Assembly: GCA_003233055.1 (NCBI GenBank)
Contig: QIKP01000039.1
Coordinates: forward strand, 1-64,000
DNA length: 64,000 bases
Reading direction: 5' to 3'
Origin: Planctomycetaceae bacterium
GTDB lineage: Bacteria; Planctomycetota; Planctomycetia; Pirellulales; Lacipirellulaceae
A model generated the notes under the pieces. That model did not search any database. It saw only the letters and a program-made list of their open reading frames with translations, and had not been told where the DNA came from. Below, one piece after another: positions 1,291 through 39,504 of the stretch. Every line of letters starts with the position of its first letter. Within the stretch, counting starts at the first letter, position 1. The position numbers and the translations under genes were made by a program.

Positions 1291-1398
1291 CGGTAAAATT
1301 CAGGGGGGAGAAAAAAGTTCGTTGCCTTGCCCGAGTAGGCGGGGCCGTTCTTTGGAGAAGGGCATTTTATACCGTTCGCGGTTTTGGCAAAAGTAGGC

Positions 1399-1508
1399 AG
1401 GCCGCCCCAGGAGAACTGCAAAGTCATTTTTGAACCGCCAAGTTACGCCAAGTACGCCTTGGCGGTTTCTTTTATTCGGCGACTTTGAAAGCGTCCTGTA
1501 GGCCGCCC
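1399..1508. repeat. Family E element with flanking direct repeats (copy E1)
   Basis: An 89-bp imperfect palindrome (1409-1497) runs from AGGAGAACTGCAAAGTC through GAACCGCCAAG and CTTGGCGGTTT to ATTCGGCGACTTTGAAAGCGTCCT. It is flanked on both sides by a perfect 9-bp direct repeat, AGGCCGCCC (1399-1407 and 1500-1508). The same ends recur at 9433-9746. It fills most of the gap between rnhA and the upstream kinase gene. Confidence 0.75.
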
Positions 1509-1555
1509 GTCGACAACTGCTACTGCGCGCCGCCCCCTCCTTGTCGGCAACTCCG

Positions 1556-3472
1556 CTACGACTCGGCTTTCCCTGCTGGCAGAAAGTCGCCCACGACCGG
1601 TCGGGCGAGCGCGGCGACTTGTTCCTTGAGTTGGGTGCCAAGGTCTCGCGTCGGTTCGATTTTCCATGGCAAGAGGACGGTGAAAGTGCTTCCTTTGCCA
1701 ACGACGCTCGACAGCGTCACGTCGCCCCCCAGCAACCGGCACAACTCGCGGACGATCGACAACCCGAGGCCGGTGCCGGAATGTTCGCGGGTCATGGCAT
1801 CCCCGCCCGGCAAGACGGCGGTTCCTTGGCGAAACTTCTCGAAGACCAAGGACTGCTCGCTCTCGCTGATGCCAATGCCGGTGTCGCTGACGGTAATTTC
1901 AAGTCGCCCGGAGGCATCTTGGGCAGCCGCGATCGAAATTCGGCCCCCCTCCGGCGTGAATTTAATCGCGTTGGAAAGCAGGTTGTTCAAAATCTGCTGG
2001 ACCTTCGCCTGATCCTGCTCCACTCTTGGCATTTGAGGTTCGAAGGTGCAGTCGAGGTCGATGTTTTTCTTTTCGGCAAGAGGCCGGGCCATGTCGCAAA
2101 GCGAGCCGATGATCGATTCGATGGGGAACTGCGTCGGCCGGACTTCCATCCGCCCACTTTCCATTTTTGCCAGATCCAAAATATCGTTAATCATATCGAG
2201 CAGCAGATTCCCCGACCTGGCGATGTTGCCGACGTACCGCTTCTGCTTTTCGTCGAGTGAGTCGATTTCGCCCAGCACTTCGCTAAAGCCAAGAATGCTA
2301 TTGAGGGGCGTGCGAAGTTCGTGGCTCATCGTGGCGAGGAAGTCGCTCTTGAGGCGGTTCATTTCGTAGAGCCGCATGTTGGCCTGAGCCAGTTCGTCGA
2401 GCTTGCCATCGAGTTCGCCATTCACATGGAGCAATTCATCTCGTTGCCTGAGCAGTTGGCGCACCATCCGGTTAAACGCGGCAGCCAGCTCCTCGAATTC
2501 GTCGCCGGTGTAGATCTCCGCCCGCTGTTCGACATCCCCCTCACGCACCGCATTGGCCACGTCGCGCAGGTGCTGCACCGGTCGGACAATAACGTATCGC
2601 ACGACGAACCAAAGCAGCACCATCGACAAAAATCCGGTGACGATCGCAGCGGTCCAAAGCATGGCGGTATTCTTGGCGAGTTCCTTGGCGGTCGGGCCAT
2701 GGTCGAACGAGATGCGCATGATCGCTAGGAGTTCGCCCGCTTTGAGCGACTTACGTGCGCTGTCGCCCATGTATTTGTGACACGCGACACAACTCTCGTG
2801 GGCAAACATGGGTCGATAGTATTGGTACATCTGCTGCCCCTCGACTTCGACGACGCGGTCGACCGGTGCCGCCTCGGGAGGAAGCCTCTCCGTGTCGCGC
2901 AATTCTGCGTCGCCCTCCGCCGGCACCGATTCGAAGGGCAAGACAATGGCGGAGTACTTCGCCAGAAGGTCTTTTTCAAAAGGATCTTGGGGGGAATTCA
3001 GGCCCTTCTTCCCCTTGTCGCTATTCGCTGGCAAGATCGTATCCCAACGAAAGTCGGTGCCATAACGCCGGCCTTCTTCGATGAGGTCCTTGTACCAATG
3101 CGTCCCGCCAGCCGGCCCGTCCCCCAGGTCGGAATCGCCCGACGGATCGTCTGCCGGCTTTTGCCCCAGGAGCCCGAAGGTCTTGGGGTCGACGCTTCGG
3201 TGGGCCTCGGAATAGGCGGTCCGAACCAGTTGTTTTCCCGATTCGCGGCTCTGGTCATAAACCAGCTTCTTCGTCCGCTCGCCGTACCAAAAGAAACTCA
3301 AGAAGATCAACAGCCCCAGCGACACCCCAAACCACCAGCGGCACTTCCGCTCGAGGCTCGATTCGGTGAAGACACGTTTGAAGGATTGGTAAGACAAAGG
3401 GAGGTCCCGAGTCGAGAGCAGGAAGAAAACGGTTGTCTGGCCATTGTAGGGGATCGACCCGACGGGAGCCAA
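1556..3472 (-). CDS. Membrane sensor histidine kinase with a c-type-haem sensor domain
   Basis: A 638-residue two-component sensor. TM1 lies near residues 47-63 and TM2 near 271-295. Between them is a periplasmic DUF3365/Tll0287-like domain with a haem-attachment motif CVACH at 228-232. After TM2 come a HAMP linker, a coiled stretch, a HisKA domain with the phospho-acceptor His384 in SHELRTP, and a HATPase_c domain (NLLSNAIKF, SDTGIGI, GTGLGLSIV). No receiver domain is attached and no response regulator is adjacent. By inference it senses redox state or a gaseous ligand through a covalent haem. The ORF-track start is TTG at 3472; a second TTG at 3403 is equally possible, and no good ATG lies before TM1. 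Confidence 0.88.
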   Translation of the reverse strand: MAPVGSIPYNGQTTVFFLLSTRDLPLSYQSFKRVFTESSLERKCRWWFGVSLGLLIFLSFFWYGERTKKLVYDQSRESGKQLVRTAYSEAHRSVDPKTFGLLGQKPADDPSGDSDLGDGPAGGTHWYKDLIEEGRRYGTDFRWDTILPANSDKGKKGLNSPQDPFEKDLLAKYSAIVLPFESVPAEGDAELRDTERLPPEAAPVDRVVEVEGQQMYQYYRPMFAHESCVACHKYMGDSARKSLKAGELLAIMRISFDHGPTAKELAKNTAMLWTAAIVTGFLSMVLLWFVVRYVIVRPVQHLRDVANAVREGDVEQRAEIYTGDEFEELAAAFNRMVRQLLRQRDELLHVNGELDGKLDELAQANMRLYEMNRLKSDFLATMSHELRTPLNSILGFSEVLGEIDSLDEKQKRYVGNIARSGNLLLDMINDILDLAKMESGRMEVRPTQFPIESIIGSLCDMARPLAEKKNIDLDCTFEPQMPRVEQDQAKVQQILNNLLSNAIKFTPEGGRISIAAAQDASGRLEITVSDTGIGISESEQSLVFEKFRQGTAVLPGGDAMTREHSGTGLGLSIVRELCRLLGGDVTLSSVVGKGSTFTVLLPWKIEPTRDLGTQLKEQVAALARPVVGDFLPAGKAES

Positions 3473-3518
3473 CCGCGGCGGGACGAACTTCCGCTGGCTC
3501 GAGGCCCTCGACCCCTTC

Positions 3519-5822
3519 TCACATCATATCGGAGGGGTCGATGTCGAGGATCCATTGCACGTCGTCAGGCGTCTTGAGCTTGCCCGCGAGTGGGGTGAGG
3601 ACCTTGAGGAGCGTGGCATGGTCGGGAGCTTTGACGATCATGTGAAAACGATAGTTGTCGCGGAGTTTCGCCAACGGGCAAGGCGCGGGGCCGACGACAT
3701 GGACCGTTTCGGTCGTCGTCGCTGCAAGATCACGAATTGCCTCGGCGATCGTCTCCGCAAAGGCCAGCGTCATCTGGTCCTTCGCCCCGCGAACGACCAG
3801 CCGCGCGAGCCGACCGAACGGCGGATAGCCGAGCATCTCGCGCTCGGGGAGTTCCCCTGCAGCAAACGCCTCGTAGTCATGCTTCATTGCCGCGACAAGC
3901 GCCGGGTGGTCGGGCGAGAGTGTCTGCACCAGTACGCGACCTCCCCGCTCGCCGCGCCCCGTCCGCCCGGCGACTTGCGTGACCAAGTGAAAGGTTCGCT
4001 CGGCAGCGCGAAAGTCGGGCCAGTGGAGCGCGGTATCGGCATTCACCACACCGACGAGTGTCACGTTCGGGAAATCAAGCCCCTTGGCGATCATTTGCGT
4101 CCCGAGCAAAATCTGCACGTCGCCGCGGCGGAATGCATCGAGCGCCTCTTCGTGACTGCCAGGGCGGCGCATGCTGTCGGAGTCCATTCGCAGCACCGCT
4201 GACTTGGGAAACCGAGCACGGACTTCTGCTTCGAGCTTTTGCGTGCCAAACCCACCGTAGCGAATGTTGGCGTCCTTGCAGTCAGGACAGTGCGTGGGGG
4301 GGGGCTCGTGGTGATCGCACCAGTGACAGGCCACGTAATTCGCCTGTCGGTGAAACACCATCGACACGTCGCACGCGGGGCACTTCAACGCGAAACCACA
4401 CTTGGGACACTGCACATGCGTCGAGAACCCGCGCCGGTTGAGCAGCAGCATCACCTGCCCCCCCTCCTTTAATGCCGCGTCCATCGCTTGGTGCATCGGG
4501 CGCGACAGCGCACCGCGGCTCCCCTTGGCGTGCGATTCGTCGCGCAAATCAATCGCCCGAACGGCCGGCATCGGCAGGTCCGAAACACGCTTGGGCAGCG
4601 AGACCAACCGGTACTCACCCCGCTTGGCCGCTTGCCACGATTCGAGCGATGGCGTCGCGCTCCCGAGCACCAGCGGTACCCCTTCTTCGCAGGTCCGGCG
4701 AAGAGCCACCTCGCGGGCATGGTAGCGAGGGACGGTGCTTTGTTTGAAGGAGGTTTCGTGTTCTTCATCAATCACGACGAGTCCCAAGTGAGGCGTCGGC
4801 GCGAAGATAGCGCTCCGTGCACCAACCACCACTTGCACCGTTCCCGAGGCGATGCGCTTCCACTGCCGGTGCCGTTCGACATCGCTTTGATGACTATGGA
4901 GCACCGCGACGTGGTCGAACCGCTCTCGAAACCGCCCGACCGTCTGTGGCGTAAGGCTAATTTCGGGGACAAGCACGATCGCTTGGCGGCCGAAGCTCAC
5001 GACCTTTTCGATCGCCTGAATGTAGACCTCCGTCTTCCCGCTACCGGTCACGCCATGCAATAAAAACGTCTCCGGTTCGCGCGCGTCGAGCGACAATTCA
5101 ATGGTCTTCAGCGCGGCAGCTTGATCGCCATTGAGCGATAGCGGTTGGGTCCGTTCGACCGTTTCTTCGAAGAGCGGGTCGGTGTCGATTCGCTCGACAT
5201 GCGACTCGATCAGCCCTTTCTTCCGAAGGGCGTTGATCGGCCCAGAGGTACACTCAGCGCGGGCCATCAGCTGGCGCATGGCGAGCGGTTTTGGGCTGGC
5301 GGCAAGAATCTGGAGGGCCTTTTTTTGTTTCTCCGGAAGTTCGATCTGCGTGATCTTCGCCGCCACCTTGGTCAGTACGGAGAAGAGGGTCGTCTCGCGC
5401 GTCCCTGCTTTACCGCGAACGCCGGCCGGCAAAATTCCTTCGAGGACCTGGCCAAGCGGCGCAAGATAATACTCCGCAATCGACTCTCCAAGCTGCAACA
5501 TGCGGGCCGAAAGGAGCGGCGCGGTGTCGATCACCGCCGCGACGGACTTGAGCTTGCGCCCCCCCGAGGGCCGAACCGCGACCTCGGTGCAGTAGCCCAC
5601 CACCGAACGGTTCCCCCGCCCAAACGGGACGCGCATTCGCCGCCCCGCCTCGGCAAAGGATTCACTGTTCTTCTCGTCGGCAAAGGAGTCCGGGACGAGA
5701 TAGTCAAACGGCCCCGCAGGCCCTGACGACATCACGATCCTCGCGATGCGAACCTGCTCAGCGTCGTCCATTTCCCACGGCGCGGGCTCGGTGTCGAAAA
5801 GTTGTTGTTGGTGAGCCGGCAT
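3519..5822 (-). CDS. priA: Primosomal protein N' (replication restart helicase PriA)
   Basis: A 3'-5' superfamily 2 helicase that reloads the replisome at abandoned forks. Seen in order: the N-terminal 3'-DNA-binding domain (ARIVMSSGPAGPFDYLVP), Walker A GVTGSGKTE, Walker B with DEEH (VVIDEEHETSFKQ), the zinc region with paired cysteines (CPKCGFALKCPACD, CHWCD, CPDCKD), and helicase motifs GTQMIAKGLDFPNVTLVGVVNAD and QVAGRTGRG. About 767 residues, normal for PriA. The track ORF starts at 5897, but residues 1-25 would translate a palindromic repeat (5848-5911). The ATG at 5822 (MPAHQQQLF) is therefore the better start. It is divergent from nadD. Confidence 0.95.
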   Translation of the reverse strand: MPAHQQQLFDTEPAPWEMDDAEQVRIARIVMSSGPAGPFDYLVPDSFADEKNSESFAEAGRRMRVPFGRGNRSVVGYCTEVAVRPSGGRKLKSVAAVIDTAPLLSARMLQLGESIAEYYLAPLGQVLEGILPAGVRGKAGTRETTLFSVLTKVAAKITQIELPEKQKKALQILAASPKPLAMRQLMARAECTSGPINALRKKGLIESHVERIDTDPLFEETVERTQPLSLNGDQAAALKTIELSLDAREPETFLLHGVTGSGKTEVYIQAIEKVVSFGRQAIVLVPEISLTPQTVGRFRERFDHVAVLHSHQSDVERHRQWKRIASGTVQVVVGARSAIFAPTPHLGLVVIDEEHETSFKQSTVPRYHAREVALRRTCEEGVPLVLGSATPSLESWQAAKRGEYRLVSLPKRVSDLPMPAVRAIDLRDESHAKGSRGALSRPMHQAMDAALKEGGQVMLLLNRRGFSTHVQCPKCGFALKCPACDVSMVFHRQANYVACHWCDHHEPPPTHCPDCKDANIRYGGFGTQKLEAEVRARFPKSAVLRMDSDSMRRPGSHEEALDAFRRGDVQILLGTQMIAKGLDFPNVTLVGVVNADTALHWPDFRAAERTFHLVTQVAGRTGRGERGGRVLVQTLSPDHPALVAAMKHDYEAFAAGELPEREMLGYPPFGRLARLVVRGAKDQMTLAFAETIAEAIRDLAATTTETVHVVGPAPCPLAKLRDNYRFHMIVKAPDHATLLKVLTPLAGKLKTPDDVQWILDIDPSDMM

Positions 5823-5847
5823 GGGGTACTCGTAGAGAACAGCCGGA

Positions 5848-5911
5848 CCGCCACGCGGTCCGTGAAATGCATGGCATCGCGGTGCTACCGCTATCACGGA
5901 CCGCGTGGCGG
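5848..5911. repeat. Family B palindrome: 18-bp perfect inverted repeat
   Basis: CCGCCACGCGGTCCGTGA (5848-5865) is exactly complementary to TCACGGACCGCGTGGCGG (5894-5911), leaving a 28-nt loop. It lies in the divergent promoter region between priA and nadD. Shorter relatives occur at 20175-20200 and 14882-14903. Confidence 0.85.
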
Positions 5912-5976
5912 CCTAGCTTGGGGACTGTTACCATACCAGTTCGTCCGTTCCCTTCCCCAGCCCCCCGTCCCAACCG

Positions 5977-6636
5977 ATGCGACTTGGCCTGTTTGGTGGT
6001 AGCTTCGATCCGGTGCATCTCGGGCACTTGGAGCTGGCTCGCGCTTGCCAAGAGCAGGCGAGGCTCGACGAAGTTTGGTTCCTTCCGACAGCGACCCAGC
6101 CATTAAAAAAACGTGGCCCCGTGGCTTCGGAGGCCGACCGCTGTGCAATGCTGGAACTGGCGATGCTGGAGCTGGCGATCGCGGACGAAACTTCTTGGCG
6201 GATGGATCGTCTGGAGATTGACCGAGGTGGCGTGAGCTACACGGTCGACACGCTGCGCGAAGTCGATGCCCGGAAGCCGGATGCCGAGCTTTTCTTTCTA
6301 ATGGGTGCCGACTCACTGCATGACTTGCCCAAGTGGCGCGAGCCCGACGCGATCCTGAATCTGGCAACCCCCTTGGTCGTCGCCCGTGCTGGCGAGCCGG
6401 CACCCCATTTTGAGGGGTTAGCGGAACTCTGCTCACCCCAGCGCATCCAGGAGATTTCCGAAGCGAGGGTCGAGATGCCTGCGATGGCCATTTCGAGCAC
6501 CGAAATCCGTAAGCGGGTGGCGGCCGGTGAAAGCCTGGTCCGCATGGTTCCCTCCTCCGTGGCCGATTTCATCGCGCAACGCCGAATCTACCAGCGTTCA
6601 AGAGCGTCCCGATCGGGGGCGTCTTCGCGGGGCTAG
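5977..6636 (+). CDS. nadD: Nicotinate-nucleotide adenylyltransferase
   Basis: Transfers AMP from ATP to nicotinate mononucleotide, giving deamido-NAD, the central step of NAD synthesis. The nucleotidyltransferase signature GLFGGSFDPVHLGHL (first residues) contains the HxGH motif. The downstream ISSTEIRKRV box binds the ATP phosphates. Length is 219 aa, as expected. LPTATQPLKKRGP is the usual substrate loop. There is a short in-frame duplication, CAMLELAMLELAIA, in the helix after the substrate loop. The start ATG at 5977 opens directly on the first beta strand, without a visible ribosome site. It stands alone on the plus strand; the next plus gene is 300 bp away. Confidence 0.93.
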   Translation: MRLGLFGGSFDPVHLGHLELARACQEQARLDEVWFLPTATQPLKKRGPVASEADRCAMLELAMLELAIADETSWRMDRLEIDRGGVSYTVDTLREVDARKPDAELFFLMGADSLHDLPKWREPDAILNLATPLVVARAGEPAPHFEGLAELCSPQRIQEISEARVEMPAMAISSTEIRKRVAAGESLVRMVPSSVADFIAQRRIYQRSRASRSGASSRG

Positions 6637-6644
6637 CCCTGCCC

Positions 6645-6728
6645 AAGCTTGGTCAGGGCTGGGAGCCCTCTTCAGCGGCGATTCGTTCGATTCGTGATTT
6701 TCCTGCCTTCGCTTTCGTGAACGGTGAC
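6645..6728. repeat. Palindrome plus family D half-element (copy D2)
   Basis: AGCCCTGCCCAAGCTTGGTCAGGGCT forms a short palindrome directly after nadD. It is followed by CGATTCGTTCGATTCGTGATTT...TTTCGTGAACGGT (6679-6725), the right half of family D. The palindrome could end nadD transcription, although it lacks a clean U-tract. Confidence 0.5.
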
Positions 6729-6944
6729 GAAAAAAGTGGCGGCGCGGATTCTATCGCGTTGTGCTTGAGTTGTCCGCTCGATTGCGACGATAGGTCTAAG
6801 GTGGTCGTAAACGCCGGCCATGCCACGAGTTAAGCAGCTTCTCCTCGGCAAACGAGCGGGCTTACCGAGAAGCGGCAAAGTGGGCGAAATATCCGCCCTG
6901 CGGGTGAATTTAGGGTGCTCTCGACACCAGTATGGGAGAATGCG

Positions 6945-7766
6945 ATGCAAGGCGGCTTGACGGTGAATCCCTCCGCTCTGGAGAACGAACTTCGGCTTCT
7001 GAAGGAAGACCTTCGGCGAGCGCAAAGCATGGCAGCGCTCGGCGAGTTGGCCAGCACCACGACGCACGAATTCAACAACGTGCTCATGACAATCCTCAAC
7101 TACGCCAAGCTCGGGCTGCGCCACCCCGACGACGCGACCCGCACCAAGGCGCTTGAAAAAATCCTCAAAGCGGCCGAACGTGCCAACAAAATCACCAACA
7201 GCGTTCTGGGAATGGCTCGCAACCGGGGCAACGATCCCGCACCAACCGACCTGGCAGAACTGGTCGAGGAGACGCTCGTTCTGATGGAGAAGGAGATGTC
7301 CAAGTACCGCGTGGCCGTCGAGCGACAGTTTGCCGACGTGCCGAAGGCGATGGTCGTCGGCAATCAGATTCAGCAGGTGCTGCTCAACCTGATGACCAAC
7401 GCCCGGCAAGCGATGCCCAAGGGAGGCCAGATTCTCCTTGCACTCCGTTACGAAGCCAATTCGGACACCATCGACCTCATGGTTCGCGACACGGGCGACG
7501 GCATCCCTGCCGATCAACTGCCGAAGATTTTTGATCGCGGATTTAGTACCAAAAGCGGCCCTGACGAATCGGGCAAAGGGGGCGCGGGCGTCGGGCTCTC
7601 GGCTTGTCGCGATATCATCGAAAACATCGGGGGGCGGATTCGCGTCCAAAGCAGCCCCGGTCGCGGCACCGCCTTCACACTCCGGCTCCCCGCAGCCAAA
7701 GAGGCCGACACCAACCCCGCCAACCAGCCCGTCGTGCAACTCGGCCGGCAATCGGTTTCTGCGTAA
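6945..7766 (+). CDS. Soluble histidine kinase without sensor domain
   Basis: About 273 residues: a short N-terminal helix, a HisKA-like dimerisation helix with His41 in TTTHEFNNVLMTIL, and a HATPase_c domain (NLMTNARQAMP, VRDTGDGIP, GGAGVGLSACRDII, GRGTAFTLRLP). The HEFNN variant of the H-box is typical of NtrB/PhoQ-unlike soluble kinases that follow a coiled coil. No membrane segment, PAS or GAF domain is present, so the input must come from a partner protein. The track ORF begins at 6915, but the ATG at 6945 is preceded by GGGAGAA at a suitable distance and is the likely start. No response regulator is adjacent. Confidence 0.85.
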   Translation: MQGGLTVNPSALENELRLLKEDLRRAQSMAALGELASTTTHEFNNVLMTILNYAKLGLRHPDDATRTKALEKILKAAERANKITNSVLGMARNRGNDPAPTDLAELVEETLVLMEKEMSKYRVAVERQFADVPKAMVVGNQIQQVLLNLMTNARQAMPKGGQILLALRYEANSDTIDLMVRDTGDGIPADQLPKIFDRGFSTKSGPDESGKGGAGVGLSACRDIIENIGGRIRVQSSPGRGTAFTLRLPAAKEADTNPANQPVVQLGRQSVSA

Positions 7767-7828
7767 GGCAACGACGGCACAGAACGATTGTAAAGTCACA
7801 GCGGAGAGCGGAGGAGCTTTCACCCCAA

Positions 7829-7853
7829 TAGCCGACGAGCTACGTCTCGTCGA
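7829..7853. repeat. Family A palindrome (copy A1)
   Basis: TAGCCGACGAGCTACGTCTCGTCGA: an 8-bp stem CCGACGAG/CTCGTCG(A) around CTACGT. It lies between two convergent genes, where it could work as a bidirectional transcript end. Confidence 0.75.
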
Positions 7854-7898
7854 GCCCTTGGCGATCTTGTCGATTCAAAAAGGACTTTGCAATCGTCC
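7854..7898 (-). repeat. Family E half-element (copy E3)
   Basis: On the minus strand, AGGACGATTGCAAAGTCCTTTTTGAATCGACAAGATCGCCAAGG aligns over about 44 positions with the left end of E2 (9432-9475). The right half is missing. It directly abuts family A copy A1. Confidence 0.65.
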
Positions 7899-7901
7899 TG
7901 A

Positions 7902-8798
7902 CTACGGCACCGGCGTTACGCTCATTGGTACACTCGGCGCGTTGGCGAGACGGGCCTGGATGTCGGCAAGGATTTTCTGTTCGAGGGGCACGTCCCGACC
8001 GTAGGAAATCCAAAAGGGCGACAAACGGGTAAGGCTGACCTGCCGGAGACCAACGGGCGGGAGCGAGCCATCGTTGCGGAACGACGTCGCCCCAGCCGTC
8101 GCGTGCTCCGGCTTCGGCAAGTCTTCAAGCTCTCGAATCACCTCGACGCCAACAAGGTAGCCGGTCGCCTCGGGCGTCACGCTCACCACCGCTCGGCGAC
8201 GGATCGTCTGCAACGTGCTTTGCCATCGGTTGAACCCACCGACCGAGTCTTTTCGCTGCGGTTCGAACAAGGTTGCCCCCGTTTGGTACGGCGTTTCGAT
8301 TCTCCCCTCGGTCCAGAGGTTTCCCGTAAGCTGTGCCCGCTGCTCGAAGGCAATCGGAAAATACTCGCTCACCACGTCGACGATTTGATCCCAAGCAAAA
8401 TCATGATTCCCCACCGGCACCTGCACCGGATTCGGCCCTTGCGAGGCGACTTCAGCACCTGGGAGCCCAAACTCCGGCGCTATCCCCCCATTCAGACTCC
8501 CGATGAAGGGCCCCCTCATCCCCGGTACTGCGAACGGCGGGGGCTGCGTCGTGGTCAGTGGCTCCGGAAACCGGGGCAACCCACCCGGCAAACTCCCCAA
8601 CGATGGCGAAGCGGGAGCCCCAAAAAGTGGCGTTGAACCGCTCCCCACTGGCGCGGTCGGCAAGAGAATCGCTCCCCCCTGAGGGGGGCCGAACGACTGA
8701 CATCCCAGCAGAGGGCACCCCACACCGGCAACGACTGCTAGCAGCGTTAGCGGAATAAGTCGAACAGAGCTCGGTGAGCGGTTCCTTGCAGTCATCAC
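7902..8798 (-). CDS. Predicted lipoprotein of unknown function
   Basis: A 298-residue protein with an N-terminal signal (RLIPLTLLAVVAGVGCPLLGCQS) that ends in a plausible lipobox LLGC; the cysteine is near residue 33. A proline/glycine-rich linker of about 100 residues follows. The C-terminal globular part starts at NHDFAWDQIVDVVSEYFPIAFEQRAQLTGNLWTEG. I recognise this architecture as common among planctomycete lipoproteins but know no function. It would sit in the periplasm, anchored by lipid. Two ATG codons in tandem (8798, 8795) are possible starts. It stands alone, convergent with the kinase upstream on the plus strand. Confidence 0.75.
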   Translation of the reverse strand: MMTARNRSPSSVRLIPLTLLAVVAGVGCPLLGCQSFGPPQGGAILLPTAPVGSGSTPLFGAPASPSLGSLPGGLPRFPEPLTTTQPPPFAVPGMRGPFIGSLNGGIAPEFGLPGAEVASQGPNPVQVPVGNHDFAWDQIVDVVSEYFPIAFEQRAQLTGNLWTEGRIETPYQTGATLFEPQRKDSVGGFNRWQSTLQTIRRRAVVSVTPEATGYLVGVEVIRELEDLPKPEHATAGATSFRNDGSLPPVGLRQVSLTRLSPFWISYGRDVPLEQKILADIQARLANAPSVPMSVTPVP

Positions 8799-9301
8799 AA
8801 CAGGCAGGAGTCAGGAGGAGAGGAGTAGTGGTACGGACACCCCGTTTTTTTCGGGCCTAACCATGCGCGACGGCGCGAGCGAGAGGATCGCGGAAACCAC
8901 GGAATGAAGCAAGCCCGGTCCGAGACGAAAAAACCGGCGGGGGGCAACGACCGATAGCAGACCTCTTCGCCAAGCTAGAAGTCGACCGCGGCTCACCGTT
9001 CGGGTAGAGTCGCTTCCGCCTTGTAAATCGCAGTCGAAAACGGAAGCGTTGCGAATGCTTGTCACGAACGGAAAGAGACACCCGAAGGAAAATGGGTTGC
9101 GCCAGACGGTCGCCCCAGCAGGGTTCGATGGAAGATGGTATTGCTCACGACCAGCAGCTCCCCTGGCAGATTTTCACCAATACGCCAGACAGCTTGTGCG
9201 ACGATCGGGGCTTCCAGCACCGGATTTCCAGCACTGGAAGTGTCGCGAGAAGAGGGGTCTCCGCGATCGGAGCGCTGGCTAGAATCCACAGCCAAAAGAA
9301 G
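8799..9301. other. Intergenic stretch between lipoprotein and tRNA gene
   Basis: About 500 bp. The overlapping ORFs on both strands (9049-9282, 9059-9364, 9062-9328, 9145-9498) conflict with one another. Several run through the tRNA gene, producing the familiar spurious peptide VAQLDRALVFGTRGCRFESC. I see no supported gene here. The lipoprotein promoter presumably lies at its left end. Confidence 0.5.
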
Positions 9302-9375
9302 TACACCCGGCAGGACTCGAACCTGCAACCCCTGGTTCCGAAGACCAGTGCTCTATCCAATTGAGCTACGGATGC
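9302..9375 (-). tRNA. tRNA-Arg, anticodon UCG (codon CGA)
   Basis: The minus strand folds as a complete cloverleaf. The acceptor stem GCATCCG/CGGGTGT has 7 pairs with G-U wobbles. The D arm is GCTCAATTGGATAGAGC. The anticodon arm CTGGT-CTTCGGA-ACCAG gives anticodon TCG. The T arm contains GGTTCGAGTCC. The discriminator is A and CCA is not encoded. UCG reads the arginine codon CGA. Confidence 0.95.
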
Positions 9376-9418
9376 GTGTCCCCCGTTTATAGAGTATTGG
9401 GGGCGTGACTCCAAGTAG

Positions 9419-9755
9419 CTCGCGGCCCACTCTGGAGAACTGCAAAGTCTTTTTTGAACCGCCAAGATCGCCAAGGCGCCAAGAAACAAGGACGCCAAGA
9501 AAAATGTCGACGGAAGCAGAAAACCACCGGATTGTTAATTCTGTCACCGTTCATGAGTCGAAAGAAAGAAACCACGAACCCAAAGAGATAGTTGGTGTCC
9601 TTTTGGCCGCTATTCGTATCGATTCGCACGAATTCGTGGTTTCCCCTGCCTCCGATTCGGTGAACGTTTGCCTCTCTCCTCCAACTCTTCTTGGCGTACT
9701 TGGCGCCTTGGCGGTTTTTTTAATTCGGCGACTTTGAAAGCGTCCTCGCGGCCCA
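9419..9755. repeat. Family E element enclosing a family D element (copy E2 with D3)
   Basis: The left end GGAGAACTGCAAAGTC (from 9433) and the right end GGCGACTTTGAAAGCGTCCT (to 9746) match E1. The pair is flanked by a perfect 11-bp direct repeat, CTCGCGGCCCA (9419-9429 and 9745-9755). Unlike E1, the centre holds about 200 extra bp, including a family D inverted repeat at 9543-9668 (GTCACCGTTCATGAGTCGAAAG...GAAACCACGAA against TTCGTGGTTTC...GATTCGGTGAAC). No gene lies inside. Confidence 0.75.
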
Positions 9756-9761
9756 GTCCGG

Positions 9762-39439: not shown

Positions 39440-39504
39440 GGAACACTAATCTTCGCTAATCTCCACTAATAGAATTAGCGCCGATTAGCGAAGATTAGTG
39501 TTCC
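39440..39504. repeat. Family C hairpin with perfect 22-bp arms (copy C4)
   Basis: GGAACACTAATCTTCGCTAATC (39440-39461) is the exact reverse complement of GATTAGCGAAGATTAGTGTTCC (39483-39504), with partial pairing in the 21-nt centre. It lies 13 bases before the ATG of the second GTPase gene. Confidence 0.9.

Follow-up and report, generated by a model that had tools for sequence, protein, structure and literature searches.

The repeats that we call E in this Pirellulales genome very probably form a nested non-autonomous transposon with ISAs1-type ends, which is probably moved in trans by a co-resident ISAs1-family insertion sequence (IS) and holds an older GCCAAG module inside. About 40 full-length copies are present in the genome; two elements (E1 and E2) and a diverged third copy lie in the window, by which we mean the whole 64,000-nucleotide stretch analysed, placed on contig C7 of a 79-contig, 2.78-Mb genome (Table 1). 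We consider E an ISAs1-type MITE because of its shared 18-bp end, its 10-11 bp duplications, the IS ends resident in the same genome and its absence from syntenic sites in relatives. This outer ISAs1-type layer has good support. The interior would be a derivative, without the gene, of a GxxExxY-type iterated-repeat module.

Table 1. Boundaries and parts of the E elements in the window
Feature	Position	Strand	Sequence or remark
Left target-site duplication of E1	1398..1407	+	CAGGCCGCCC
E1, short-form element	1408..1498	+	91 bp; one GCCAAG hairpin between ISAs1-type ends
Right target-site duplication of E1	1499..1508	+	TAGGCCGCCC
Third, diverged E copy	7780..7900	.	Ends CAGAACGATTGTAAAGTC / CAGGACGATTGCAAAGTC; contains GACGAGCTACGTCTCGTC palindrome
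Left target-site duplication of E2	9422..9431	+	GCGGCCCACT
E2, long-form element	9432..9747	+	316 bp (family consensus 314 bp)
Left terminal repeat of E2	9432..9449	+	CTGGAGAACTGCAAAGTC; 17/18 identity with ISAs1 IS end
E2 inner module, left iterated arm	9455..9502	+	GAACCGCCAAGATCGCCAAGGCGCCAAG...
E2 innermost module	9568..9643	.	Arms GAAACCACGAA / TTCGTGGTTTC; CACGAA-type inverted repeat
E2 inner module, right iterated arm	9687..9716	-	AACCGCCAAGGCGCCAAGTACGCCAAG on minus strand
Right terminal repeat of E2	9730..9747	-	GAGGACGCTTTCAAAGTC on minus strand
Right target-site duplication of E2	9748..9757	+	GCGGCCCAGT

A sequence-only reading had described E1 and E2 as MITE-like elements with both ends in common, and we found the sequences and ends as it had given them. 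The elements that it placed are real, with boundaries that needed slight shifts to those in Table 1; the flanking repeats, which it took to be perfect and 9 and 11 bp long, are 10 bp long with one mismatch at both elements. Its MITE interpretation stood, while the identity of the mobiliser (the ISAs1 family) and the nested composition were missing from it. Judged from the full copy set, an E element starts with CAGG and ends with CCTG, and the outermost letters of E2 are mutated (CTGG at the start and CCTC at the end). The third copy is flanked by a 9-bp duplication with one mismatch (ACGACGGCA / ACTACGGCA). No candidate gene, and hence no transposase gene, was found in the interiors of E1 and E2, and the sole match in an Rfam search was the adjoining tRNA-Arg.

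Across the genome, the left-end pattern gave 46 matches with at most 3 mismatches versus 0 for the reversed control, and the right-end pattern gave 63 versus 11 under the same threshold. From the sequence stretches around these matches we delimited 39 elements of 80-615 bp, with length clusters near 80-90 and 250-346 bp. The consensus of the long copies is 314 bp, with a mean pairwise identity of 83% among them, and most of the others are 89-95% identical to E2. The true ends are CAGGAGAACTGCAAAGTC on the left and, on the minus strand, CAGGACGCTTTCAAAGTC on the right; between the conserved outer CAGGA and the conserved inner AAAGTC, the sequence varies. To measure duplications, we compared the last n bases before each element with the first n bases after it, using mispaired flanks as the control. 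Flank identity over the 39 copies peaked sharply at n=10 (0.56 versus 0.28 in the control), followed by n=11, and most other values were close to the control. Allowing no more than one mismatch, 22 of the 39 copies had a duplication of 7-11 bp compared with 9 of 1482 mispaired flanks, making it about 90 times commoner. The remaining 17 delimited copies showed no duplication under the strict call, being old, degraded or wrongly paired at their ends. The duplications vary from copy to copy and therefore belong to the target site and not to the element. The sequence-only reading had worried that the flanking repeats might be outer parts of the element, which is refuted by the unrelated flanks of other copies; those copies carry unrelated 10-11 bp duplications of their own, in agreement with its target-duplication proposal. 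When the flanks of the five legible copies (L020, L021, L033, L049 and L063) were read as joined, the junction fell outside any recognisable coding part, and none of these five copies was clearly inside a gene. At one place in this genome (G000; C4:1-180 and the end of C59; L026, L149), an IS copy sits beside a short E copy with the same 10-bp GGTAAGGCGG between and flanking both, an arrangement that suggests repeated insertion at one target.

The likely mobiliser was recognised from the same ends. With few or no changes, the 18-bp end terminates ISAs1-family ISs of about 1.23-1.28 kb in relatives (G027, G011, G004, G020, G050 and G021), and the left end of E agrees at 18/18 positions with the IS ends in G027, G011, G004, G020 and others. 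The right end matches the IS end at 13/18 positions and differs at 5/18, which leaves room for a related ISAs1 lineage as the mobiliser. Between CAGGAGAACTGCAAAGTC ends, the relatives encode an ISAs1-family transposase (NF033564, 148 bits; PF13808; PF01609), and where both flanks are present, these ISs are bordered by 10-11 bp duplications (GCAAATCCCG, ACTAACATTC, CTCTACAGACC). The genome's own assembly gave no match to PF13808 and contains no complete ISAs1 transposase. Instead, 12 contig ends break within such an IS, the interior of which is not assembled: an identical IS 5′ end stands at 7 of them and an identical 3′ end at 5, and 4 of these 5 encode the last 23-24 transposase residues (75-78% identity). 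In each of the contig pairs C59/C4, C33/C28 and C7/C15, the same 10-11 bp duplication stands on either side of the missing IS, and the contig of the window itself ends in such an IS. The genome thus holds at least 7 copies of this IS, visible only at contig ends; the identical IS ends at broken contigs and the paired duplications indicate several recent copies lost to repeat collapse. As the assembly lacks a complete ISAs1 transposase, the partnership draws on the contig-end fragments and on the relatives. Duplication lengths agree as well: those of E peak at 10 bp, and those of the IS measure 10-11 bp, both in relatives and at the three own contig pairs.

Two further observations concern this IS subgroup. 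In several IS copies (L078, L079, L153, L160, L162) the transposase lies in two frames, split at the same place within a conserved A-rich GAA AAA AAG or a close variant, after which the protein goes on in the -1 frame; in one IS copy of G027, a local sequence change leaves a single frame. This site is a likely candidate for programmed -1 frameshifting. Additionally, the same ISAs1-type ends surround quite different hairpin interiors in G034 (L154, L155, L157; 120 matches to ISAs1-type ends in this genome) and in G056 (L156, L158), which are apparently independent MITE families; the palindromic contig end of L154 was left out as a possible assembly artefact.

We compared the loci with three genomes of the same genus (G001, G002 and G003); G021 belongs to the same family, and other relatives are labelled Pirellulales. 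A search of these three for the terminal repeat gave no match at all. In G002 and G003, the genes on either side of E1 are neighbours, and the intergenic gap between them is 115-144 bp shorter; G001 has a gap of similar length, filled with unrelated sequence. The gap at the locus of the 7780 copy falls short by 127-144 bp in each of the three genomes; the difference in G002 is exactly 130 bp, the length of the element (121) and one duplication (9) together. The orthologous-site comparison that had been proposed alongside the sequence-only reading thus came out in its favour, with E1 and the 7780 copy absent from syntenic same-genus loci. Synteny around E2 is lost within the genus, so that this element offers no empty site. 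The relatives are only 70-77% identical at the nucleotide level, and the empty sites are therefore syntenic absences rather than base-perfect ones. The E pattern had no exact match among 85,462 GTDB species, apart possibly from its own records, and hence no base-perfect empty site came from there.

Inside the ISAs1-type ends lies a second layer, with the arm sequence GAACCGCCAAGNNCGCCAAG. The interior of E2 consists of inverted iterated arms, AACCGCCAAGATCGCCAAGGCGCCAAG, reversed on the opposite side, within which the further inverted CACGAA-type pair is nested. These inverted arms fit a pattern of about three units, each 6-7 nt long and spaced by 9-11 nt. In relatives, GCCAAG arms stand alone between genes, without ISAs1 ends, and various other inverted modules are nested between them. 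One alternative is that the arms arose inside the ISAs1 MITE and that the bare arms of relatives are decayed remnants that lost their ends. Composites of an arm and an ISAs1-type end do occur in several other genera, but the arm-richest genomes, G018, G044 and G040 (122, 124 and 318 arm matches), have 0, 0 and 5 terminal-repeat matches (G015 has 50 arm matches; reversed controls gave 0-2). Moreover, arms without ISAs1 ends match each other well and are found on both sides of GxxExxY genes. We consider this origin improbable, and favour the capture of an independently existing module by ISAs1-type ends.

Several other repeats of the window were noted along the way. The palindrome TAGCCGACGAGCTACGYCTCGTCGGCTA occurs in many copies (7822-7852, 21508, 37719/37757, 46021, 52302, 57962 and 60297), partly inside E-like elements (7780-7900, L048). 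Arrays of GATTAGCGAAGATTAGTG are found at 39440-39504, 18772, 27917 and 28240, with a near-perfect inverted pair at one place, and CTAAT-type units resembling them bracket a GxxExxY gene in L209. The repeat AGCCGGACCGCCACGCGGTCCG is present at 5838-5868, 5894-5918 and 20169, its 5838 copy having several same-genus matches, mostly in G001. A 92-nt family with CGCAAAGGCGC-type arms (18626, 28110, 46258) is probably another iterated-repeat module.

The inner arms of E match those bracketing GxxExxY genes at L182 and L189; at L182 (G015), the gene within the arms scores 133 bits against TIGR04256 and 132 bits against PF13366. E itself contains no GxxExxY gene, and the one copy elsewhere in its genome has an arm type different from that of E. 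Of the 40 relatives, 33 have PF13366 matches, and often more than one. We surveyed 29 GxxExxY loci with full flanks, scoring the inverted similarity of upstream and downstream flanks. The mean was 22.3; mispaired loci gave 9.6, and the distal flanks of the same loci gave 8.9, with a maximum of 11.0. A score of at least 15 was reached at 28 of the 29 loci, and 28 of the 29 genes are bracketed by such arms. The unit varies by locus (CACAGAG, GCCAAG, CGCAGAG, GCAAAG, CTGGATT, CGAATC and others), and the two arms of a locus agree. Over the GxxExxY (PDDEXK_3) loci L182, L186-L215 and L244-L247, bracketing by arms is nearly universal. Among plasmid records of other phyla, the loci of Bacteroides, Gemmatirosa, Bernardetia and Sphingomonas are bracketed, that of Treponema is weakly so, and those of Persicobacter and Fusobacteria are not.

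The unit looks like a mobile cassette. Sphingomonas parapaucimobilis has it between fabD and fabG, two genes that directly neighbour each other in S. paeninsulae and Rhizobium, where the cassette is missing, and at one locus in the window's genus, the cassette is present in G000, G001 and G002, while G003 has an arm-like remnant and no gene. Such empty sites show that the unit was gained or lost, not its way of moving. The inner arms could be binding or termination signals travelling with the gene. We found no GxxExxY relatives in viral contigs or the PDB, nothing relevant in the literature on ISAs1 MITEs, the arm sequences or GxxExxY, and no paper on the arm-bracketed cassette, which looks undescribed. 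Our confidence is evenly divided on a broader proposal, in which the inner module of E is one member of an undescribed class of mobile cassettes that spans phyla. In this class, short inverted iterated repeats, with a unit varying by cassette, would bracket a GxxExxY gene (PD-(D/E)XK, PF13366/TIGR04256) and gene-less derivatives would abound, E showing such a derivative captured by ISAs1 ends.

Taken together, we propose a putative mechanism for the spread of E. The outermost 18 bp of E are the terminal repeat of an ISAs1-family IS whose ends occur in the same genome, and the ISAs1 transposase most likely works on these ends in trans. E would then insert at new, mostly intergenic sites, where a staggered cut would give rise to the 10-11 bp duplication. 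Inside the ends lies the probably older module of inverted iterated GCCAAG arms, independent in relatives and sometimes carrying a GxxExxY gene there, with more inverted modules nested within it.

Two other explanations fare worse still. E copies might be immobile regulatory hairpins, such as terminators or binding sites, kept static by selection; the few sites examined are all intergenic, and the GCCAAG hairpin of E1 is followed by a T-run, as in a terminator. However, the flanks are unrelated, the duplications are specific to each element, the position is not conserved (E is missing from syntenic sites in the genus) and the ends are identical to those of an IS, which makes this explanation very unlikely. 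Equally implausible is that E belongs with the REP/BIME-like hairpin elements, its hairpin being acted on by an IS200/IS605-type (RAYT, Y1) transposase: E1 does fold into a hairpin, though imperfectly (z about -2 to -3), and some copies hold a short palindrome, but E has terminal repeats and ends matching a DDE-type ISAs1 IS, and its 10-11 bp duplications already contradict Y1 single-strand transposition, which to our knowledge yields neither terminal repeats nor target duplications of that length. REP/BIME insertion is without target duplication, whereas E has 10-bp duplications; REP/BIME elements, unlike E, are not known to have long terminal repeats or target duplications.

As an ISAs1-type MITE, E resembles other bacterial IS-family MITEs in being short, high in copy number and free of a transposase gene, in having short deletion derivatives, and in sharing the terminal repeats of an IS with ends in the same genome and target duplications of equal length. 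It departs from them in its asymmetric ends and in an interior that is a nested foreign iterated-repeat module rather than a deleted IS. With ISAs1-family ISs (IS4-like DDE transposases; PF13808/PF01609), E has in common a terminal repeat starting with CAGG and a duplication of about 10 bp; unlike them, it carries no gene. Tn3-derived TIMEs are non-autonomous miniature inverted-repeat elements, as E is, and can form mosaic transposons (PMC4133298); their transposase family is a different one. REP/BIME elements with RAYT transposases are, like E, short palindromic repeats interspersed in prokaryotic genomes (PMC3733652).

With these findings, a repeat of high copy number from a little-studied phylum is cleanly accounted for and tied to a specific transposase. 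They also expose a layered structure, in which the iterated GCCAAG-type arms of many planctomycete genomes, unexplained in the literature searched, are the very arms found around GxxExxY genes. What GxxExxY and the arm arrays do thereby becomes a set of testable questions.
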